This document shows positions 31,126 through 50,866 of a stretch of DNA of 64,000 bases, one piece after another. Origin of the DNA: Rhodospirillaceae bacterium. GTDB taxonomy: Bacteria > Pseudomonadota > Alphaproteobacteria > Bin65. How positions within the stretch are numbered: the stretch's first letter is position 1; each line of letters opens with the position of its first letter. The DNA lies in contig WTGH01000033.1 in assembly GCA_011523655.1 (NCBI GenBank), positions 1 through 64,000 on the forward strand, given 5' to 3'. Below the pieces are notes generated by a model that did no database searches, was not told where the DNA came from, and worked only from the letters and a program-made list of their open reading frames with translations. The translations under genes were made by a program, and so were the position numbers.

Positions 31126-31481
31126 TCCAGCGCCCCCTTCTTCCATTCGTAGACGAAACCGACGGTCAGGATGATGAGGAACACGACCATCGACCAGAAG
31201 CCGAAATGCTGGGTCTCCGAAAGCGTGATCGCCCAGGGAAACAGGAAGGCGACTTCGAGGTCGAAAATGATGAACAGGATGGCGACGAGATAGAAGCGGA
31301 CATCGAACTGGCCGCGCGAATCCTCGAACGCGTCGAAGCCGCACTCATAGGCGGCGAGTTTCTCCGAATAGGGCTTCTGCTTCGCCAGGATCCACGAGGC
31401 GGCGACCATCGCGATCGCCAGCCCCAGGGCAATCCCCAGAAAGATGGCGATCGGCAGGTATTCGGCCAGAATATCGCTCAT
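31116..31481 (-). CDS. nuoA: NADH-quinone oxidoreductase subunit A
   Basis: A 121-aa membrane subunit with three helices and the long TMH1-2 loop at the quinone cavity. Family features are [20 protein letters not shown] and [17 protein letters not shown]. It opens the 14-gene nuo block; nuoA-N are all present with no missing subunit. The leader directly upstream holds four 13-14 bp direct repeats (31485-31531). Confidence 0.98.
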
Positions 31482-31484
31482 GGT

Positions 31485-31531
31485 TTCCGTCGGGGGGTTC
31501 CGTCAGGGGTTTCCGTCAGGGGCGGTCCGTC
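31485..31531. repeat. Four direct repeats in the nuoA leader
   Basis: Read on the plus strand, TTCCGTC occurs at 31485, 31498 and 31511, and a GTCCGTC variant begins at 31525, spaced 13, 13 and 14 bp and each followed by a G-run. On the nuo coding strand this is a repeated CCTGACGGAAACC-type unit ending three bases before the nuoA ATG. It therefore sits where the ribosome-binding site must be. Confidence 0.8.
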
Positions 31532-31713
31532 AGGATTGCCGTGTCGCCCGGCGTTCCGCCGGTCCGGACAGGCCGGTTATAGGGCCGGCCGCGTCGATTG
31601 CATAGCCTTAGCACGGTCTCGCCCGGCCGCACAGCCGGCGCACCGCCGCGCGCGGCAAATTTTCGTGATCGGTCGCCTGTTTCGGCGGGAATTCCGCGGG
31701 CCGGTGGCGGGAG

Positions 31714-42895: not shown

Positions 42896-44092
42896 GTGAA
42901 ATATCCAATCATGTTTGCCGCCACTGCCGCGCTCGCGTTCGTGGGAACGCAAGGCGCCGCCGTGTCGGCCGATCGCGAAGTCCATGTCGCCGGTTTCGGC
43001 GCCAAGTCCGGCGTCGTCCGCTCGTTCGGCGTCAACACCGAAGCGGTGATGCGCGCCGCGGCCGAGAAGATCAACAAGGAAGGCGGAATCAAGCTCGGCG
43101 ACGGCACGAAGGGCAAGGTGGTCGTGACCTTCTACGACGACCGCTGCAAGGCCGAGGAAGGCATCTCCGTCGTCCGCCGCATCGCGTCGGGCAAGGCCGT
43201 CGTGGCGATCGGCCCGACCTGCTCGAACGTCGCCGAGCCGCTGTTCGGCGTCCTGCAGAAGAAGGCCGGCGACGCTTCGGATACGGGCCTCCAGTTCCCG
43301 ATCTTCACCGACACGGCCATCAAGGGTGGCCTGGCGAAGATTTCGGAATGGGCGTTCCGCAACGTGCCGAACGAAAGCCAAATGTACCAGAGCCTGTTCA
43401 AATGGGTGAAGAAGACGAATCCGGGCTTCAAGTCCGTCTTCGGCGGCGTGGAAGAGGATTTCGCCCACTCGCGCTTCACTTGGTACCAGGTCATGGAAAA
43501 GCGCGCCGCGGAAGCCGGCTTCGAGGTTAAGGGCCGGGTCAAGTGGCTGCTCAACGACACCAACTTCACCACCCAGGTGCGGCAGATGAAGAAGGCGAAA
43601 GCCGACGTCATCTCCATTTCCTCGCACCCCTTCACCCTGTGCGGTGTGCTCAAGGAGATGAAGCGCCAGCGCGTGAAGTATAAGATGCTGATCGGCCTTA
43701 CCAGCTCGTCGAGCATGGAGACCCTCAGGGGCTGCTCGCGCCAAGCTGCCGGAATCATCATCCCGACCAGCTACGCGCCGGTAACCCCGGCGGCCAAGGA
43801 AGCGGCAGCCGGAGCAGCCAAGTATAACGGCAGCGCCGACCTGCACAGCGCCGCAGCCTGGGAGAACATGTTCATCCTGAAGAGCGTCATCGAGAAAACC
43901 GGCGTCATGGCCAAGGGCGACACGGTGCAGGCCGACCGCCGCAAGATCCGCGACGGACTGGCCGCGTTGAAGTCGACCGGCGGCCTGATCGGCGGCATCC
44001 AGCGCACGAAAGAAGGCGAAGCCGTCAAGCCGTATGTCTATGTCCATGCGCAAGGGAAAGAGTGGAAGATCCTCCACGACCCGCGCAAATAG
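42896..44092 (+). CDS. Branched-chain amino-acid-type ABC transporter binding protein
   Basis: A 398-aa periplasmic type-I binding protein (LivJ/K-like, Peripla_BP_6). The signal peptide spans about residues 1-23 (PIMFAATAALAFVGTQGAAVS). The mature protein has AAAEKINKEGGIKLGDGTKG, VVVTFYDDRCKAEEGISVVR and AIGPTCSNVAEPLFGVLQ in lobe 1. GTG 42896 is preceded by AGGGAGGAAC. It is the only binding-protein gene for two complete permease/ATPase sets that follow, so both may share it or another set's partner may lie elsewhere. The ligand is not readable; HAAT transporters also import aromatic acids, amides and urea. Confidence 0.9.
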   Translation: MKYPIMFAATAALAFVGTQGAAVSADREVHVAGFGAKSGVVRSFGVNTEAVMRAAAEKINKEGGIKLGDGTKGKVVVTFYDDRCKAEEGISVVRRIASGKAVVAIGPTCSNVAEPLFGVLQKKAGDASDTGLQFPIFTDTAIKGGLAKISEWAFRNVPNESQMYQSLFKWVKKTNPGFKSVFGGVEEDFAHSRFTWYQVMEKRAAEAGFEVKGRVKWLLNDTNFTTQVRQMKKAKADVISISSHPFTLCGVLKEMKRQRVKYKMLIGLTSSSSMETLRGCSRQAAGIIIPTSYAPVTPAAKEAAAGAAKYNGSADLHSAAAWENMFILKSVIEKTGVMAKGDTVQADRRKIRDGLAALKSTGGLIGGIQRTKEGEAVKPYVYVHAQGKEWKILHDPRK

Positions 44093-44109
44093 GCTGACGG
44101 TCTAGAATC

Positions 44110-44136
44110 CCGCCGGCGCCCGTGCGGCGCCGGCGG
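44110..44136 (+). terminator. GC-rich stem-loop between binding-protein and permease genes
   Basis: CCGCCGGCGCC and GGCGCCGGCGG form a perfect 11-bp stem around the loop CGTGC, followed by ATTTCTCT. Placed 17 bp after the binding-protein stop and 60 bp before livH, it probably attenuates transcription or protects the upstream mRNA, allowing more binding protein than membrane components. Confidence 0.7.
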
Positions 44137-44195
44137 ATTTCTCTCGCATTTAATCTCCACTCCATCCGCTCCCGTTCGGGAAGAAGGGCGGCCCC

Positions 44196-45110
44196 GTGGA
44201 ATTTGTCGATTATCTTCAGGCGGTCACCGACGGCGTGATGCAGGGCGCGTATTACGCGCTCATCGGAATCGGCTTCACGCTGATCTTCGGCGTGATGAAC
44301 AAGATCAACCTGGCCTATGCAGCGGCGGCGTTCGGCGGCGCCTACGCCAGCCTCGGCGTCGCGGCGTTGATCGGCGCCGGCGACGATTTCGGCCTGCCGC
44401 CGTTGCTTATGTTCCTGGTATCGGCGATCGCCGCGGGCCTGTTCGCCTGGGTCGTCTATACGATCTGCTTCCGATTCACGCCGGACCATTACGAACTCGC
44501 CACGCTGATGGCGACGGTTGGCGCATTCTTCCTGATCGAAGAGATCGCCGTCCACGCCACCGACGGGGAACCGATGGATTTCCCGGAGGTGCTGCAGGGC
44601 ATCATCGACGATCCGATGATCGAATTCAGCGACGCCTTCGCGGTCCGCGGCGACCTGCTGACGATCTTCCTGCTCGCCCTGATCGCGATGGGGCTGCTGC
44701 TCACGCTGCTGTACCGGACCAAGCTCGGCCTGGCGACCCGGGCGGTCGCGCAGCAGAGGACCGCAGCGCAGCTTTGCGGCATCAGCGTCGACCGGACCAA
44801 CGCGACGACCTTCATCATCGCCGGCGTCCTGGGCGGCCTGGCCGGCGCCATGATCGGCGCGGCTGTCGGCGTCCTGTCGCCGCTGCTCTTCGTTCCGCTG
44901 ACCGTCAAGGGCCTGATCGTCACCGTGATGGGCGGCCTGGGCAGCATTCCGGGCGCGATCGTCGCCGGCCTGCTGGTCGGCGGGCTGGAAAATGTATTTC
45001 TTGCCCTGCGCGGCATCACCGAGCGCGACATGTATGTCATGCTCCTGCTGTTCCTGTTCCTTGCGTTCCGTCCGCAGGGGCTGTTCGGCAAGAAGGTGTT
45101 GAGGGACTGA
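44196..45110 (+). CDS. livH: HAAT transporter permease LivH (set 1)
   Basis: A 304-aa inner-membrane subunit with about eight helices. The N-terminal VTDGVMQGAYYALIGIGFTL, then IFGVMNKINLAYAAAAFGGA, and the cytoplasmic EAA-like region LGLATRAVAQQRTAAQLCGI and VTVMGGLGSIPGAIVAGLLV mark LivH. The GTG start is preceded by a weak AAGGGCG. It pairs with the LivM-type permease 4 bp downstream. Confidence 0.9.
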   Translation: MEFVDYLQAVTDGVMQGAYYALIGIGFTLIFGVMNKINLAYAAAAFGGAYASLGVAALIGAGDDFGLPPLLMFLVSAIAAGLFAWVVYTICFRFTPDHYELATLMATVGAFFLIEEIAVHATDGEPMDFPEVLQGIIDDPMIEFSDAFAVRGDLLTIFLLALIAMGLLLTLLYRTKLGLATRAVAQQRTAAQLCGISVDRTNATTFIIAGVLGGLAGAMIGAAVGVLSPLLFVPLTVKGLIVTVMGGLGSIPGAIVAGLLVGGLENVFLALRGITERDMYVMLLLFLFLAFRPQGLFGKKVLRD

Positions 45111-45114
45111 GGCG

Positions 45115-46026
45115 ATGGACGACTTTACCTGGGGCCTGGTCCAGATCGTCGGGGTCCACACCATCTTGGGCCTGTCGGCCTATGTGATCCTTCTGACCGG
45201 CCAGGTCTCGATGGCCCAGGCCGGCTTCGTGGCGATCGGCGCCTATGTCGCCGGCATGCTCACGGTGCTCGCCGAATGGCACATCATTCCGTCCATGATC
45301 ACCGGCGGGCTCGCTGCTGCCGTGCTGGCCTGCATCGTCGGCTTCCCCGCGCTGCGGGTGCGCGGGCTGATGCTGGTCGTGGCGACCATCGCGTTCGGCG
45401 AATTCGTGCGCCTGTTCTGGTTCAACTTCGACTACCGGATCGCCAAGGGCGATATCATCGTCGGCCCGGAAGGCGGTGAGGGCTTCAAGCAGATCCGCTT
45501 CTTCCCGGAAAACGGATGGACGACCCAGGACGTTGCAGCCTTCATATGGATTGTCGCCGCGATCATCCTGGCCACCCTTTGGTGGATGGACCGTTCGCGC
45601 GCCGGCAAGGTGCTGCGCGCGGTCGGCGAAGACGAGATGGCGGCCCAGAGCGTGGGCATCAATCTGACCGTGGTGAAGGTGTCCGCCTTTACCGCCGGCG
45701 GTTTCATCGCCGGGATCGCGGGCGCCCTGTATGCCCATTACACGACCCACATCGAGCATCTGAACTTCGACATCCTCATGGCGACCTTCGCGATCGCCTA
45801 TCCGATCCTGGGCGGCCTCGCGAATGTCTGGGGTACGCTGTTCGCCGCGATCTTCATCCAGGTGATCGTTATCGAAGTGCTCCGCGACCTTGGCGACGTT
45901 CGAAACCTGATGTTCGGTGCGCTGATCATCCTGGTGATGAACTTCCTGCCCCGGGGCCTGTTCAGCGCCCAGGTGGTGCGCAAGCTGAAGGAATGGATCG
46001 GCGCCGGGAAGACGTCCGATGCTTGA
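45115..46026 (+). CDS. livM: HAAT transporter permease LivM (set 1)
   Basis: A 303-aa permease. GLSAYVILLTGQVSMAQAGF, VGFPALRVRGLMLVVATIAF and KVLRAVGEDEMAAQSVGINL are the family marks, with YPILGGLANVWGTLFAAIFI near the C-terminus. It forms a heterodimer with the LivH protein. The stop overlaps the livG start by 8 bp. Confidence 0.9.
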   Translation: MDDFTWGLVQIVGVHTILGLSAYVILLTGQVSMAQAGFVAIGAYVAGMLTVLAEWHIIPSMITGGLAAAVLACIVGFPALRVRGLMLVVATIAFGEFVRLFWFNFDYRIAKGDIIVGPEGGEGFKQIRFFPENGWTTQDVAAFIWIVAAIILATLWWMDRSRAGKVLRAVGEDEMAAQSVGINLTVVKVSAFTAGGFIAGIAGALYAHYTTHIEHLNFDILMATFAIAYPILGGLANVWGTLFAAIFIQVIVIEVLRDLGDVRNLMFGALIILVMNFLPRGLFSAQVVRKLKEWIGAGKTSDA

Positions 46027-46780
46027 AGTCGCCAACCTCTCCAAACATTTCGGCGGCGTGCGCGCCGTCGACGAACTGGACTTCACGGTCGAGGCCGGGG
46101 AAATCTTCGGCCTGATCGGCCCCAACGGTTCGGGCAAGAGCACGACCGTCAATATGATCGCCGGTATCTTCGCGCCGACCGACGGCAAGATCGTCTTCGA
46201 CGGCGAGGACATCACGGAAGCGCCGCCGCACGTCACGCTGCACGCCGGCATCGCGCGGACCTTCCAGAACATCCGCCTGTTCAACAACATGACGGTCTGG
46301 GAAAATCTCTGGGTCGCCCAGAACTCGGCCGAGCAGAAGCGGACCGGCAATCCGCTCGCGCGCTGGATGGGCGGGTCGCGACGCGCCGCCGCCGCCGTCG
46401 AGGACTATCTCGAATTCTCCAACCTCGCCCACAAGCGCGACGAACTGGCCGGCAACCTGGCTTTCGGCGAGCAGCGCCGGCTCGAGGTGGCCCGGGCGCT
46501 CGCTGCGCAGCCTAAATTCCTGCTGCTCGACGAGCCGGCCGCCGGCATGAACCTGGAAGAGGTCAAGGAACTGGACGAGCGCCTGCGCGTGCTTCGGGAC
46601 CGCGGCGTCACGATCCTGCTGGTCGAGCATGTCATGGAGCTGGTGATGGAGGTCACGGACCGGATTGCCGTGCTCAATTTCGGCCGCAAGATCGCCGAAG
46701 GTACTCCATCGGAGGTGCAACAGAACCAGGCCGTGATGGACGCCTATCTCGGCGCCGGCGAAGGCGGGTCCGATGCTTGA
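46019..46780 (+). CDS. livG: HAAT transporter ATP-binding protein LivG (set 1)
   Basis: A 253-aa ATPase. Walker A is GPNGSGKST, the Q-loop region is ARTFQNIRLFNNMTVWENL, the signature-equivalent LAFGEQRRLEVARAL and Walker B LLLDEPAAGMNLEE follow, with H-loop VEHVMELVMEV. The degenerate LAFGEQ signature is normal for LivG. It overlaps livF by 8 bp. Confidence 0.9.
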   Translation: MLEVANLSKHFGGVRAVDELDFTVEAGEIFGLIGPNGSGKSTTVNMIAGIFAPTDGKIVFDGEDITEAPPHVTLHAGIARTFQNIRLFNNMTVWENLWVAQNSAEQKRTGNPLARWMGGSRRAAAAVEDYLEFSNLAHKRDELAGNLAFGEQRRLEVARALAAQPKFLLLDEPAAGMNLEEVKELDERLRVLRDRGVTILLVEHVMELVMEVTDRIAVLNFGRKIAEGTPSEVQQNQAVMDAYLGAGEGGSDA

Positions 46781-47486
46781 GATCACGGATATCGTCACCT
46801 CCTACGGCAAGATCGAGGCGCTGAAAGGGGTCTCCCTTTCCGTTGCGCCCGGCAAGATCACCTGCCTGCTCGGCCCGAACGGCGCCGGCAAGACCACGAC
46901 GATGATGACCGTCTCCGGCCTGCTGAAGCCGCGCCGCGGAAACATCACGTTCGAAGAGCGGAACATCACCGGGCGCGATCCCGGCCATATCGTGCAGAGC
47001 GGTATCGCGCTGGTCCCGGAAAACCGGCTGGTCTTCCCGGACATGACCGTTCACGACAATCTGCGCACCGGCGCCTACAGCCGTTCGGACAACGAGATCG
47101 AAGACGATATCGAGCACATGTTCGAACGGTTCCCGCGCTTGCACGAGCGCCAGTTGCAGCATGCCGGGACGCTATCGGGCGGCGAACAGCAGATGCTGGC
47201 GGTCGCCCGCGCCCTGATGGCCCGGCCCAAGCTGCTGCTGATGGACGAGCCGTCGCTCGGCCTAGCGCCGCTGATCGTCGAGGAGATTTTCCGGATCATC
47301 CGCGATCTCAACGCCGAAGGTGTGTCGATCTTCCTCGTCGAGCAGAATGTCCACCAGGCGCTCAAGGTGGCCCACCATTTCTACCTGCTGGAACAGGGCC
47401 GCGTGACCTTCGGCGGATCGCCCGGCGACCTCGAGGAAGACGAGGTGATCCAGCGGGCCTATCTGGGGTCGGCCGAACAGACATAG
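46773..47486 (+). CDS. livF: HAAT transporter ATP-binding protein LivF (set 1)
   Basis: A 237-aa ATPase: Walker A GPNGAGKTT, LVPENRLVFPDMTVHDNLR, signature LSGGEQQMLAVARAL, Walker B LLLMDEPSLGLAP and H-loop VEQNVHQALKVA. It pairs with LivG in the first set. Its stop is followed by a G-rich leader with three GGAG-containing repeats before the second permease gene. Confidence 0.9.
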   Translation: MLEITDIVTSYGKIEALKGVSLSVAPGKITCLLGPNGAGKTTTMMTVSGLLKPRRGNITFEERNITGRDPGHIVQSGIALVPENRLVFPDMTVHDNLRTGAYSRSDNEIEDDIEHMFERFPRLHERQLQHAGTLSGGEQQMLAVARALMARPKLLLMDEPSLGLAPLIVEEIFRIIRDLNAEGVSIFLVEQNVHQALKVAHHFYLLEQGRVTFGGSPGDLEEDEVIQRAYLGSAEQT

Positions 47487-47509
47487 CGCGGGCGCAGCCC
47501 CCGGGGGAT

Positions 47510-47551
47510 GGGGAGAAGCCGGCGGGGAGAAACCGGCGGGGGAGAAACCGG
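47510..47551 (+). repeat. Three tandem 14-15-bp repeats, each with a Shine-Dalgarno-like GGAG
   Basis: Units GGGGAGAAGCCGGC (47510-47523), GGGGAGAAACCGGC (47524-47537) and GGGGGAGAAACCGG (47538-47551) are offset by 14 and 15 bp. Each contains GGGGAG, and the last sits about 7 nt before the first codon of the second LivH gene, ATT. An ATG lies at 47508, at the left edge, out of frame with LivH. Confidence 0.9.
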
Positions 47552-48451
47552 ATTCTCGATTTCATCCAGAACACCCTCGACGGCATTACCGTAGGTTCGG
47601 GTTACGCCCTGCTTGCCATCGGCTTCACGCTGATTTTCGGCGTCCTGCGCCGCCTCAACCTGTCCTACGGCCCGTCGATCATGGTCGGCGTGTTCTTCGG
47701 GACCTTCCTGTTCCTCCAGTTCCAGGCCGGCTGGTACGCCGTGCTGGTGGCGACCGTCCTGGGCGCGGTGATCGCCGGCGCCTATGTCGAACGCCTGTGT
47801 TTCTGGGCGATCAAGAAAGGCGCGGCGGTGGCCTCGATGGTTTCGAGCTTCGCCGTCTGGATGCAGCTCGAAGAAGCCGTCACCATCGCCTTTCCCGACC
47901 GCACCTACGAATTTCCCGCGCTGGGCGATTTCGAGCTCATCGAACTGGGGGAGCTTTCGGTCCGCCAGGAGCACCTGATCATGCTGGGCATCGCGGCGCT
48001 CCTCGTCTTCGCGCTGCATCAGCTGCTCTTCCGCACGCGCTTCGGCCTGGCGGTGCGGGCGGTCTCCGAGGATCCCGACGCCGCGCTCTTCATGGGCGTC
48101 AACACCGGGCGGGTGATCTTTCTCGCCTTCATTCTGGCGTCTGCCATCGGCGGCATCGCCGGCTATTTCATCATGGCGACCGAAGAGGTCATCACGCCGA
48201 AATTCGGCCTGCAGGCGACCTTCAAGGGGCTGATCGCCATGATGCTGGGCGGCATGGGATCGGTGCCGGGCGCAATCGCCGGCGGGCTTCTGCTCGGCGT
48301 CGTCGAGAAACAGGCGGAGTGGTATGCCGGCGCGGTCTGGCGCGACATCGCCGCCTTCCTGCTGCTGTTCGTGTTCCTGATCTTCCGGCCGGGCGGCCTG
48401 CTCGCGCAAGGGGCGGCGGCCCGCGACCTGGCCGCGCTCAGGCGGGTCTAG
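47552..48451 (+). CDS. livH: HAAT transporter permease LivH (set 2), ATT start likely
   Basis: A 299-aa LivH-type permease if read from ATT 47552. The expected N-terminal block ILDFIQNTLDGITVGSGYAL, then LAIGFTLIFGVLRRLNLSYG lies before the first in-frame ATG (47681), and no ATG, GTG, TTG or CTG occurs in frame upstream of it. Starting at 47681 would delete the first helix. The downstream helices and FGLAVRAVSEDPDAALFMGV and MMLGGMGSVPGAIAGGLLLG are normal. Either ATT initiates after GGAG, or the ATG at 47508 was displaced by repeat expansion; removal of one 14-bp unit would bring it into frame. Confidence 0.8.
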   Translation: MLDFIQNTLDGITVGSGYALLAIGFTLIFGVLRRLNLSYGPSIMVGVFFGTFLFLQFQAGWYAVLVATVLGAVIAGAYVERLCFWAIKKGAAVASMVSSFAVWMQLEEAVTIAFPDRTYEFPALGDFELIELGELSVRQEHLIMLGIAALLVFALHQLLFRTRFGLAVRAVSEDPDAALFMGVNTGRVIFLAFILASAIGGIAGYFIMATEEVITPKFGLQATFKGLIAMMLGGMGSVPGAIAGGLLLGVVEKQAEWYAGAVWRDIAAFLLLFVFLIFRPGGLLAQGAAARDLAALRRV

Positions 48452-48488
48452 AGGCGGCGGGCGAGGGCGAGGGGCGCGGGGCCGGATC

Positions 48489-49412
48489 ATGGACGACCAT
48501 GTCATCACGGTGCTGAACAATATCGGCGGTTTTTCGTTCATCGCGCTGTCCGCCTATCTGCTTCTGCTTAGCGGCGAGATTTCCTTCGGCCAGCAGGCCT
48601 TCTACGGCATCGGCGCCTATGCCTCCGGGATCATGACGGCCATGTTCGGCATGAGCTTCTGGCTTGCCCTGCCGCTCGCCATGATCGTCTCGGGGCTGGC
48701 GGCGGCCCTCGTCGGCGGCCTGACGCTGCGCCTGCGCGGCCTCTATTTCGCCATCGCAACCCTCGCATTTGCGGAAACGATCCGCCTGATCCTGGTCGCG
48801 ACCACCTGGCAGGTCGAGGTCGACGGCGAACCGGTCGGCCCGAACGGCTCGGAAGGGCTCGGCAGCATCCGCTGGGGCTTCGATAACGAATACGAGCCGG
48901 TCGACTTCCTGTGGATGATCTACGGCTCGCTGGGCATCGTGCTGCTTCTCTTCTTCCTGATGGAGCGCAGCCGCCTCGGCTCGATCGTCCGGACCATCGG
49001 GGCGGACCGGCTGCTGGCCGAAACCCAGGGCATCAACGTGACCCGGTACAAGATCCTTGTGGCGGGGCTTGCCGGCGCCATTGCAGCGATCGGCGGCGCC
49101 TTCTACGCCCATATCCAGACGACCGTTTATCCCGAGAATTTCGATGTCATGCTCGGCGTTCACAGCCTCGCCTACGGGCTGATCGGCGGCCTCGGCACGG
49201 CGGTCGGACCGATCCTCGGCGTGCTGCTCGACGTCGGGTTTCTCGAAGCCGTCGAATGGGTCCAGGGCTACCGGATGATCGTGTTCGGCGGGCTCGTGGC
49301 CGTCCTTCTGATCTTCATGCCGCGCGGGATCCTCGACGAGCGCCGCGTGCACCGGCTGCGGACGATGCTGCGCGGATGGCGGGCCGAAACCCATGGCGCT
49401 GCTGGAAATTAG
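48489..49412 (+). CDS. livM: HAAT transporter permease LivM (set 2)
   Basis: A 307-aa permease with ALSAYLLLLSGEISFGQQAF, YGIGAYASGIMTAMFGMSFW, LRLRGLYFAIATLAFAETIR and SIVRTIGADRLLAETQGINV. C-terminal GLIGGLGTAVGPILGVLLDV precedes a soluble, Arg-rich tail. Its stop overlaps the next ATPase gene by 20 bp. It lies 37 bp after livH of set 2. Confidence 0.9.
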   Translation: MDDHVITVLNNIGGFSFIALSAYLLLLSGEISFGQQAFYGIGAYASGIMTAMFGMSFWLALPLAMIVSGLAAALVGGLTLRLRGLYFAIATLAFAETIRLILVATTWQVEVDGEPVGPNGSEGLGSIRWGFDNEYEPVDFLWMIYGSLGIVLLLFFLMERSRLGSIVRTIGADRLLAETQGINVTRYKILVAGLAGAIAAIGGAFYAHIQTTVYPENFDVMLGVHSLAYGLIGGLGTAVGPILGVLLDVGFLEAVEWVQGYRMIVFGGLVAVLLIFMPRGILDERRVHRLRTMLRGWRAETHGAAGN

Positions 49413-50154
49413 CGGGATCGGCCGGCGGTTCGGCGCGGTCGAGGCGCTCAACGCGATCGACCTCAGTGTCGAGGAAGGCGAGGTCTTCGGGCTGATCGGG
49501 CCGAACGGCTCCGGCAAGACCACCCTGTTCAACGTGCTGACCGGAGTCTATCCGCCGAGCGCGGGGGAAATCCGCCTGGACGGCGCGCCGATCGGCGGTG
49601 TCCGGCCCGAGCGCATCGCCGGAATGGGCCTCGCCCGCACCTTTCAGAATTTGCGCCTGGTCCCGCATATGAGCGCCTTCGACAATGTCTGGCTGGCCCA
49701 GCACCGGCGCCCCGGCATGGGGATGCGCGATATCCTCGCCGTCGGCGGACGCAAGGAGCGCGCGCGCCGCGACGAGGTCGAGGCGCTGCTGGAACAGACC
49801 GGCCTGGCCGCCCGGCGCGATACCTTCGCCGGCGACCTGCCCCTGCCCGACCAGCGCCGGCTGGAGATTGCCCGGGCCCTGGTCCGCCAGCCGCGGCTGC
49901 TGTTGCTCGACGAACCGGCCGGCGGCATGACGCCGCTGGAAACCCGCGAGATGGCCGACCTGATCCGCACGGTGGCGGCGCCGGGACGGACGCTGATCGT
50001 GATCGAGCACAAGATGGACCTGATCGCCGAAATCTGCGACCGGCTGTGCGTGCTCGACTTCGGCCGCAAGATCGCCGAGGGCCCGCCCGGCCGCGTGCTC
50101 AGCGATCCGAAAGTCCTCGACGTCTATCTCGGCCGCGAGGACGGCGATGATTGA
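49393..50154 (+). CDS. livG: HAAT transporter ATP-binding protein LivG (set 2)
   Basis: A 253-aa ATPase: Walker A GPNGSGKTT, Q-loop ARTFQNLRLVPHMSAFDNV, the signature-equivalent LPLPDQRRLEIARAL, Walker B LLLLDEPAGGMTPLE and H-loop IEHKMDLIAEI. The signature is more degenerate than in set 1: Pro-Asp occupies the usual Gly positions. It overlaps livF of set 2 by 8 bp. Confidence 0.88.
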   Translation: MALLEISGIGRRFGAVEALNAIDLSVEEGEVFGLIGPNGSGKTTLFNVLTGVYPPSAGEIRLDGAPIGGVRPERIAGMGLARTFQNLRLVPHMSAFDNVWLAQHRRPGMGMRDILAVGGRKERARRDEVEALLEQTGLAARRDTFAGDLPLPDQRRLEIARALVRQPRLLLLDEPAGGMTPLETREMADLIRTVAAPGRTLIVIEHKMDLIAEICDRLCVLDFGRKIAEGPPGRVLSDPKVLDVYLGREDGDD

Positions 50155-50866
50155 GGTCCGCAGCCTCGCCGTCAGCTATGGCAACATCCGGGCGGTGCAG
50201 GGCATCGATCTGGATGTCGCCGCCGGCGAGATCGTCGCCCTGATCGGCGCCAACGGAGCCGGCAAGAGTTCGACCCTGCGGGCGGTCTCGGGCATCGAGA
50301 AGCCGGCCGGGGGCACGATCCGTTTCGAAGGCCGGGACATCGCCGGCCGCCCGCCGCACGAGATCATCGCCGCCGGGATCACCCAGGTGCCGGAAGGCCG
50401 CCAGATTTTCGGCCGGCTAAGCGTGCGCGAAAATCTCCGCCTCGGCGCCTATCTGCGCTCCGCCGACGAGATCGACGATGCCGTCGCCGGAGTCGTCACG
50501 CTCTTCCCGATCCTGCGGGACCGGCTGGACGCGCCCGGCTCGGAACTTTCCGGGGGTCAGGCGCAGATGCTGGCGCTGGCCCGCGGCGTGATCGCCCGCC
50601 CGCGCCTGTTGATGCTGGACGAGCCGACGCTCGGCCTGGCGCCCAAGACGGCGGGCGAAATCTTCGCGATCATTCGCCGGCTGCGCGCCGACGGCCTGAC
50701 GATTATGCTGGTCGAACAGAATCTGCGCCAGGCCCTGAAAATCGCGGACCGCGCCTATGTGCTGGAGAGCGGCCGGATCGTCCTGCAGGGCACGGCCGCC
50801 GAACTGGCCGCCGACCGCCGTCTTCACGACGCCTATCTCGGCGTCAGCAGGGAGGATTTATCATGA
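50147..50866 (+). CDS. livF: HAAT transporter ATP-binding protein LivF (set 2)
   Basis: A 239-aa ATPase: Walker A GANGAGKSS, TQVPEGRQIFGRLSVRENL, signature LSGGQAQMLALARGV, Walker B LMLDEPTLGLAPKT and H-loop VEQNLRQALKIA. Overlaps livG by 8 bp and the periplasmic-protein gene by 4 (ATGA). Confidence 0.9.
   Translation: MIEVRSLAVSYGNIRAVQGIDLDVAAGEIVALIGANGAGKSSTLRAVSGIEKPAGGTIRFEGRDIAGRPPHEIIAAGITQVPEGRQIFGRLSVRENLRLGAYLRSADEIDDAVAGVVTLFPILRDRLDAPGSELSGGQAQMLALARGVIARPRLLMLDEPTLGLAPKTAGEIFAIIRRLRADGLTIMLVEQNLRQALKIADRAYVLESGRIVLQGTAAELAADRRLHDAYLGVSREDLS

Follow-up and report, generated by a model that had tools for sequence, protein, structure and literature searches.

The second of two tandem transporter gene sets in this DNA raises a simple question: at which codon does translation of its permease gene, livH, begin? 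The window, by which we mean the whole 64,000-nucleotide stretch analysed, comes from a 4.27-Mb draft genome (G000 in our species comparison) of an alphaproteobacterium that is apparently sponge-associated, judging from the record name of one relative and from general knowledge. An earlier note had placed the conserved N-terminus of this LivH at ATT 47552, behind three short repeats and without a standard start codon, and had offered two explanations: a rare ATT start, or an on/off switch operated by contraction and expansion of the repeats. It had proposed comparing the leader among close relatives and checking the G-runs for indel errors.

The locus and the livH reading frame

Two branched-chain-amino-acid-type ABC transporter gene sets lie in tandem at 42.9-50.9 kb (42902-50866). 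Set 1 has the gene order binding protein, LivH, LivM, LivG, LivF, and set 2 then follows with LivH, LivM, LivG and LivF; LivG and the second LivF were named by position and sequence type. The site under study is the junction between set-1 livF and set-2 livH (Table 1). Set-2 livH scored 130 bits against Pfam BPD_transp_2 (PF02653; gathering score 26.8), which makes its product a LivH-type permease, and reached 134.5 of the 379 required for the NCBIfam LivH equivalog. Because the equivalog cut-offs were not reached, the substrate of this livH is uncertain, as are the substrates of both sets. There is one obvious binding protein gene for the two sets (42.9-44.1 kb), and no second one was seen between set 1 and set 2.

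Table 1. Features at the livF-livH junction, with positions in the window
Feature	Position	Strand	Remarks
livF, set-1 ATP-binding protein	46773..47486	+	Best NCBIfam model LivF, E 9e-74, under equivalog cut-off; stop TAG 47484-47486
Out-of-frame ATG, 28-codon frame	47508..47594	+	Confined to G000, G001 and G002; function unlikely
Outer repeat unit 1, GGGGAGAAGCCGGC	47510..47523	+	TAG in livH frame in G001 and G002
Repeat unit 2, GGGGAGAAACCGGC plus one extra G	47524..47538	+	Contains GGGGAG
Proximal unit GGGGAGAAACCGG, livH Shine-Dalgarno site	47539..47551	+	GGAG 47541-47544, 7 nt before ATT; kept in six species
ATT, proposed livH start codon	47552..47554	+	ATT in 6/6 same-genus orthologs; ATG/GTG in same column of most distant orthologs
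Set-2 livH, branched-chain amino acid type ABC permease, 299 aa	47552..48451	+	PF02653, E 1.1e-37
Set-2 livM permease	48489..49412	+	Ordinary ATG start

When rechecked in the sequence, the letters and frames that the earlier note gave for the livH leader were all correct, including its claim that the livH frame holds no ATG, GTG, TTG or CTG from the livF stop to ATT 47552. The conceivable starts further upstream in this frame are ATA 47483, ATC 47417, ATC 47174 and CTG 46862, beyond which TGA 46778 closes the frame. The nearest upstream CTG of G000 thus lies 690 nt before ATT, within livF. We rejected a livH start inside livF, which this CTG would allow in G000, since stops cut it off in all other species.

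ATT at the probable start of livH across the genus

Five further species of the same genus (G001-G005) carry a livH ortholog, giving six with G000; an order-wide ortholog search found no further species. The genomes compared are draft or metagenome assemblies, and the named same-genus relatives are metagenome-assembled "Rhodospirillaceae" or "Alphaproteobacteria" bacteria (VXNK01000106, JAJEGH010000032, FZLR01000063 "Spongia_Bin9" and MPMX01000045). Identity of the orthologs in the five relatives was 94-100% in the search, and amino acid identity between species pairs was 93-99.7% in the codon comparison.

The proposed first codon of livH is ATT at the identical position in all six species. 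Upstream of it, the livH frame is closed by TAG at -36 in G001 and G002, TAA at -24 in G003, TGA at -90 in G004 and TGA at -75 in G005, and no standard start codon stands between these stops and ATT. With an in-frame stop only 24-90 nt upstream, therefore, no standard start is left to use in these five species. Three of the five stops (G001, G002 and G003) fall within a repeat unit. The six species have no standard start in common either upstream of ATT or in the first 43 codons; the first downstream ATG, GTG or TTG common to all of them is the ATG at codon 44, past the first conserved membrane segment. In every one of the six, ATT opens the conserved coding sequence, and its vicinity offers no usable standard start.

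Most of the more distant orthologs carry a standard start in the same column of the alignment: ATG in G009 (72% identity), L041 (69%), G008 (60%), L044 (59%) and L045 (52%), and GTG in L042 (64%) and G054 (50%). The exception is L046, with an apparent ATG start a few codons upstream of the ATT column. Because most distant orthologs have ATG or GTG there, the simplest history would be a single change from ATG to ATT in the stem lineage of the genus, before its radiation.

To what extent is the ATT itself preserved? Fourfold-degenerate sites of livH differ by 6-29% between species pairs, and the first 11 codons, ATT included, are identical in all six species. For 33 internal ATT isoleucine codons of sampled genes, G003 and G004 both have ATT at just eight. 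Within livH there are two conserved internal ATT codons, neither of which stays ATT across all six species. Judged from the alignment, ATT is not singled out by conservation from the codons that flank it. Since the whole 11-codon 5' stretch is invariant, the argument concerns a conserved initiation region and not one codon.

The Shine-Dalgarno unit and the leader repeats

The three GGGGAG-bearing repeats reported directly before ATT are present at 47510-47523, 47524-47537 and 47539-47552, with spacings of 14 and 15. The unit adjoining ATT, GGGAGAAACCGR, is conserved in 6/6 species, and this proximal unit is the only one intact in every species, reading GGGAGAAACCG, then G or A, then ATT. The arrangement of GGAG, 7 nt and ATT has a good and conserved Shine-Dalgarno spacing, with the anti-Shine-Dalgarno sequence assumed (searches of three draft genomes, G000, G003 and G004, turned up no 16S rRNA and thus no 3' end of it). 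The comparison of leaders proposed in the earlier note showed ATT kept in six of six, and between one and three repeat units as read from the aligned leaders: one in G005, two in G004 and three in G000-G003. The outer copies have decayed; the middle unit of G003, for example, is GGGTAAAACCGG, with its GGAG lost.

The leader array has a TRF score of 70. Ten random 64-kb sequences, generated by a second-order Markov model to match the trinucleotide composition, contained none this good, which places the array beyond chance. Two other places in the window hold arrays of similar or better score, so that the livH array is not unique. A nuoA-like gene on the minus strand has tandem CCCCTGACGGAAA-like units at 31482-31542, directly before its ATG at 31481; this array, in the same style as that of livH, is present in G000 and G002 and absent in G004. 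The stretch 47484-47600 folds more weakly than its shuffles (z = +1.4), and no RNA switch is indicated. We also considered GGGAGAAACCGG as a dispersed element and discarded it, as only 1-4 copies per genome were found and no repeat family emerged. The tandem copies of the Shine-Dalgarno unit are probably lineage-specific duplications that drift.

Start codons of other genes

To put livH in context, gene starts were surveyed over 226 kb of G000, a sample of the genome, against the orthologous stretches of other species. There were 43 frames with a coding substitution pattern, two of which were judged probable antisense shadows, leaving 41 gene sets. An ATG, GTG or TTG common to all species compared lies near the start of conservation in 39 of the 41. 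Only livH and infC are without a shared standard start. The start of infC is ATA in 6/6 species (loci L053-L058 of G000-G005), with AAAGGAAG upstream and a stop 21-27 nt upstream. Gene callers allowing only ATG, GTG or TTG would start infC 19 codons late.

Alternative explanations

The on/off switch proposed for this leader would work through ATG 47508, which would move into and out of the livH frame as a 14-bp unit is gained or lost. Its arithmetic is sound: this ATG sits in another frame, 44 nt before ATT, and loss of 14 nt would bring it in frame, though loss of 15 nt would not. There are also three near-identical tandem units, and the number of repeats does vary between species. On the other hand, the array has few units and these have decayed, with 15 nt rather than 14 nt as one of its two spacings. 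ATG 47508 is absent from G003, G004 and G005, and in each of G000-G002 it lies out of frame at 44 nt before ATT, so that none of the six species has an in-frame ATG in the livH leader. Across them, the differing unit numbers do not shift a start into and out of the reading frame as they would in a phase-variable gene. Because a similar lineage-specific duplication also precedes the nuoA-like gene with its ordinary ATG, drift of the repeats is favoured over a switch, which we regard as very improbable. A -1 frameshift in the G-run from ATG 47508 was rejected too, the ATG being missing in three species. Of the two explanations originally offered, the rare ATT start is the one supported, by the ATT of six species, the five upstream stops, the ATG or GTG of most outgroups and the conserved Shine-Dalgarno site; the switch, with its ATG in 3/6 species and never in frame, is not.

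An ordinary start could also be hidden by an assembly or sequencing error, since both G-rich runs and tandem repeats invite errors and the assemblies are of draft or metagenome quality. However, six separately assembled genomes share the same ATT and the unit adjacent to it, and differ around them in a phylogenetically sensible way, which makes an indel or assembly error very unlikely. A further explanation is that livH is hardly translated from ATT, its decaying start being kept by drift, with possible re-initiation after livF at a mix of near-cognate codons (ATT or the ATC of codon 5). In other bacteria ATT starts are weak, and a very inefficient start in a little-used gene would look alike. 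Against this, the protein is under strong selection, keeping its 93-99.7% amino acid identity despite up to 29% fourfold-site difference, and the spacing of the conserved Shine-Dalgarno site is ideal for a start at ATT but not for one at codon 5. We consider such a decaying start unlikely. ATT 47552, by contrast with these alternatives, is very probably the real start codon of livH, from which the N-terminus of LivH is predicted to be (f)M-LDFIQNTLDGITVGSGY.

Discussion

The livH gene at this locus is very probably an additional case of the rare AUU start, a known phenomenon. Its effect on expression could be pictured as follows. In the stem lineage of the genus an ancestral ATG would have become ATT; AUU would be read by the initiator tRNA as a near-cognate codon; and IF3 would destabilise the AUU initiation complexes, as it does at E. 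coli infC. LivH output would then fall below the level of an AUG start and be IF3-sensitive, and the strong Shine-Dalgarno site would partly offset the loss. That site is in line with the tendency of starts weakened to GUG or UUG to have stronger Shine-Dalgarno sequences (PMC5622118). A rare start at infC, such as this genus has, is classically what allows IF3 autoregulation (PMC5472188). IF3 therefore probably discriminates against near-cognate starts in these species, and the start of livH would fall under that discrimination. Taking the IF3 sensitivity from E. coli and Streptomyces, we lean towards a LivH translation that is both reduced and IF3-sensitive. It is a good deal more doubtful that the ATT start, instead of being a tolerated accident, acts as a regulator, in which the level of IF3, reporting translation capacity, would set the amount of LivH and hence the activity of the transporter, with duplications of the Shine-Dalgarno unit tuning the level in each species. 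If true, this would link the initiation machinery to nutrient uptake in these bacteria, and livH offers a concrete gene for asking whether IF3 tunes a transporter. There is also a practical side: gene callers restricted to ATG, GTG and TTG are expected to start livH at ATG 47681, losing 43 residues and the first membrane segment. The locus illustrates how sequence comparison with close relatives can be enough by itself to establish a rare start.

Several known systems resemble livH in part. Phase-variable genes are a known class with repeats at the start codon, and in livH, as in them, tandem repeats separate a candidate ATG from the coding frame. The livH units, however, are few and decayed, and the ATG lacks conservation and is out of frame wherever it occurs. 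In E. coli, infC starts at AUU and is autoregulated by IF3, and pcnB is also an AUU-start gene; very few genes beyond these two are known to have conserved AUU starts. AUU starts have in addition been supported by mutation for rcsD-Hpt of Y. pestis (PMC10191623) and by genetics and structure for pncA/bbe22 of B. burgdorferi (PMC13398362). Like livH, pcnB, pncA/bbe22 and rcsD-Hpt are single genes starting at AUU; they differ from it in not encoding transporters and in their experimental proof, livH being known from its sequence. In Streptomyces, infC starts with AUC, and the GTC start of sigR, a rare start other than that of infC, is repressed by IF3 (PMC5472188). The infC genes of E. coli and Streptomyces share with livH a conserved AUN near-cognate start behind a good Shine-Dalgarno site, and infC of the present genus has ATA; infC, however, closes a feedback loop on IF3, whereas LivH, a transporter permease, is not known to feed back on IF3. 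The codon and the gene are different in sigR, for which IF3 regulation has been shown while we infer it for livH, but sigR resembles livH in having a conserved rare start without belonging to the initiation machinery, and both products have partner proteins to which their ratio may be important.
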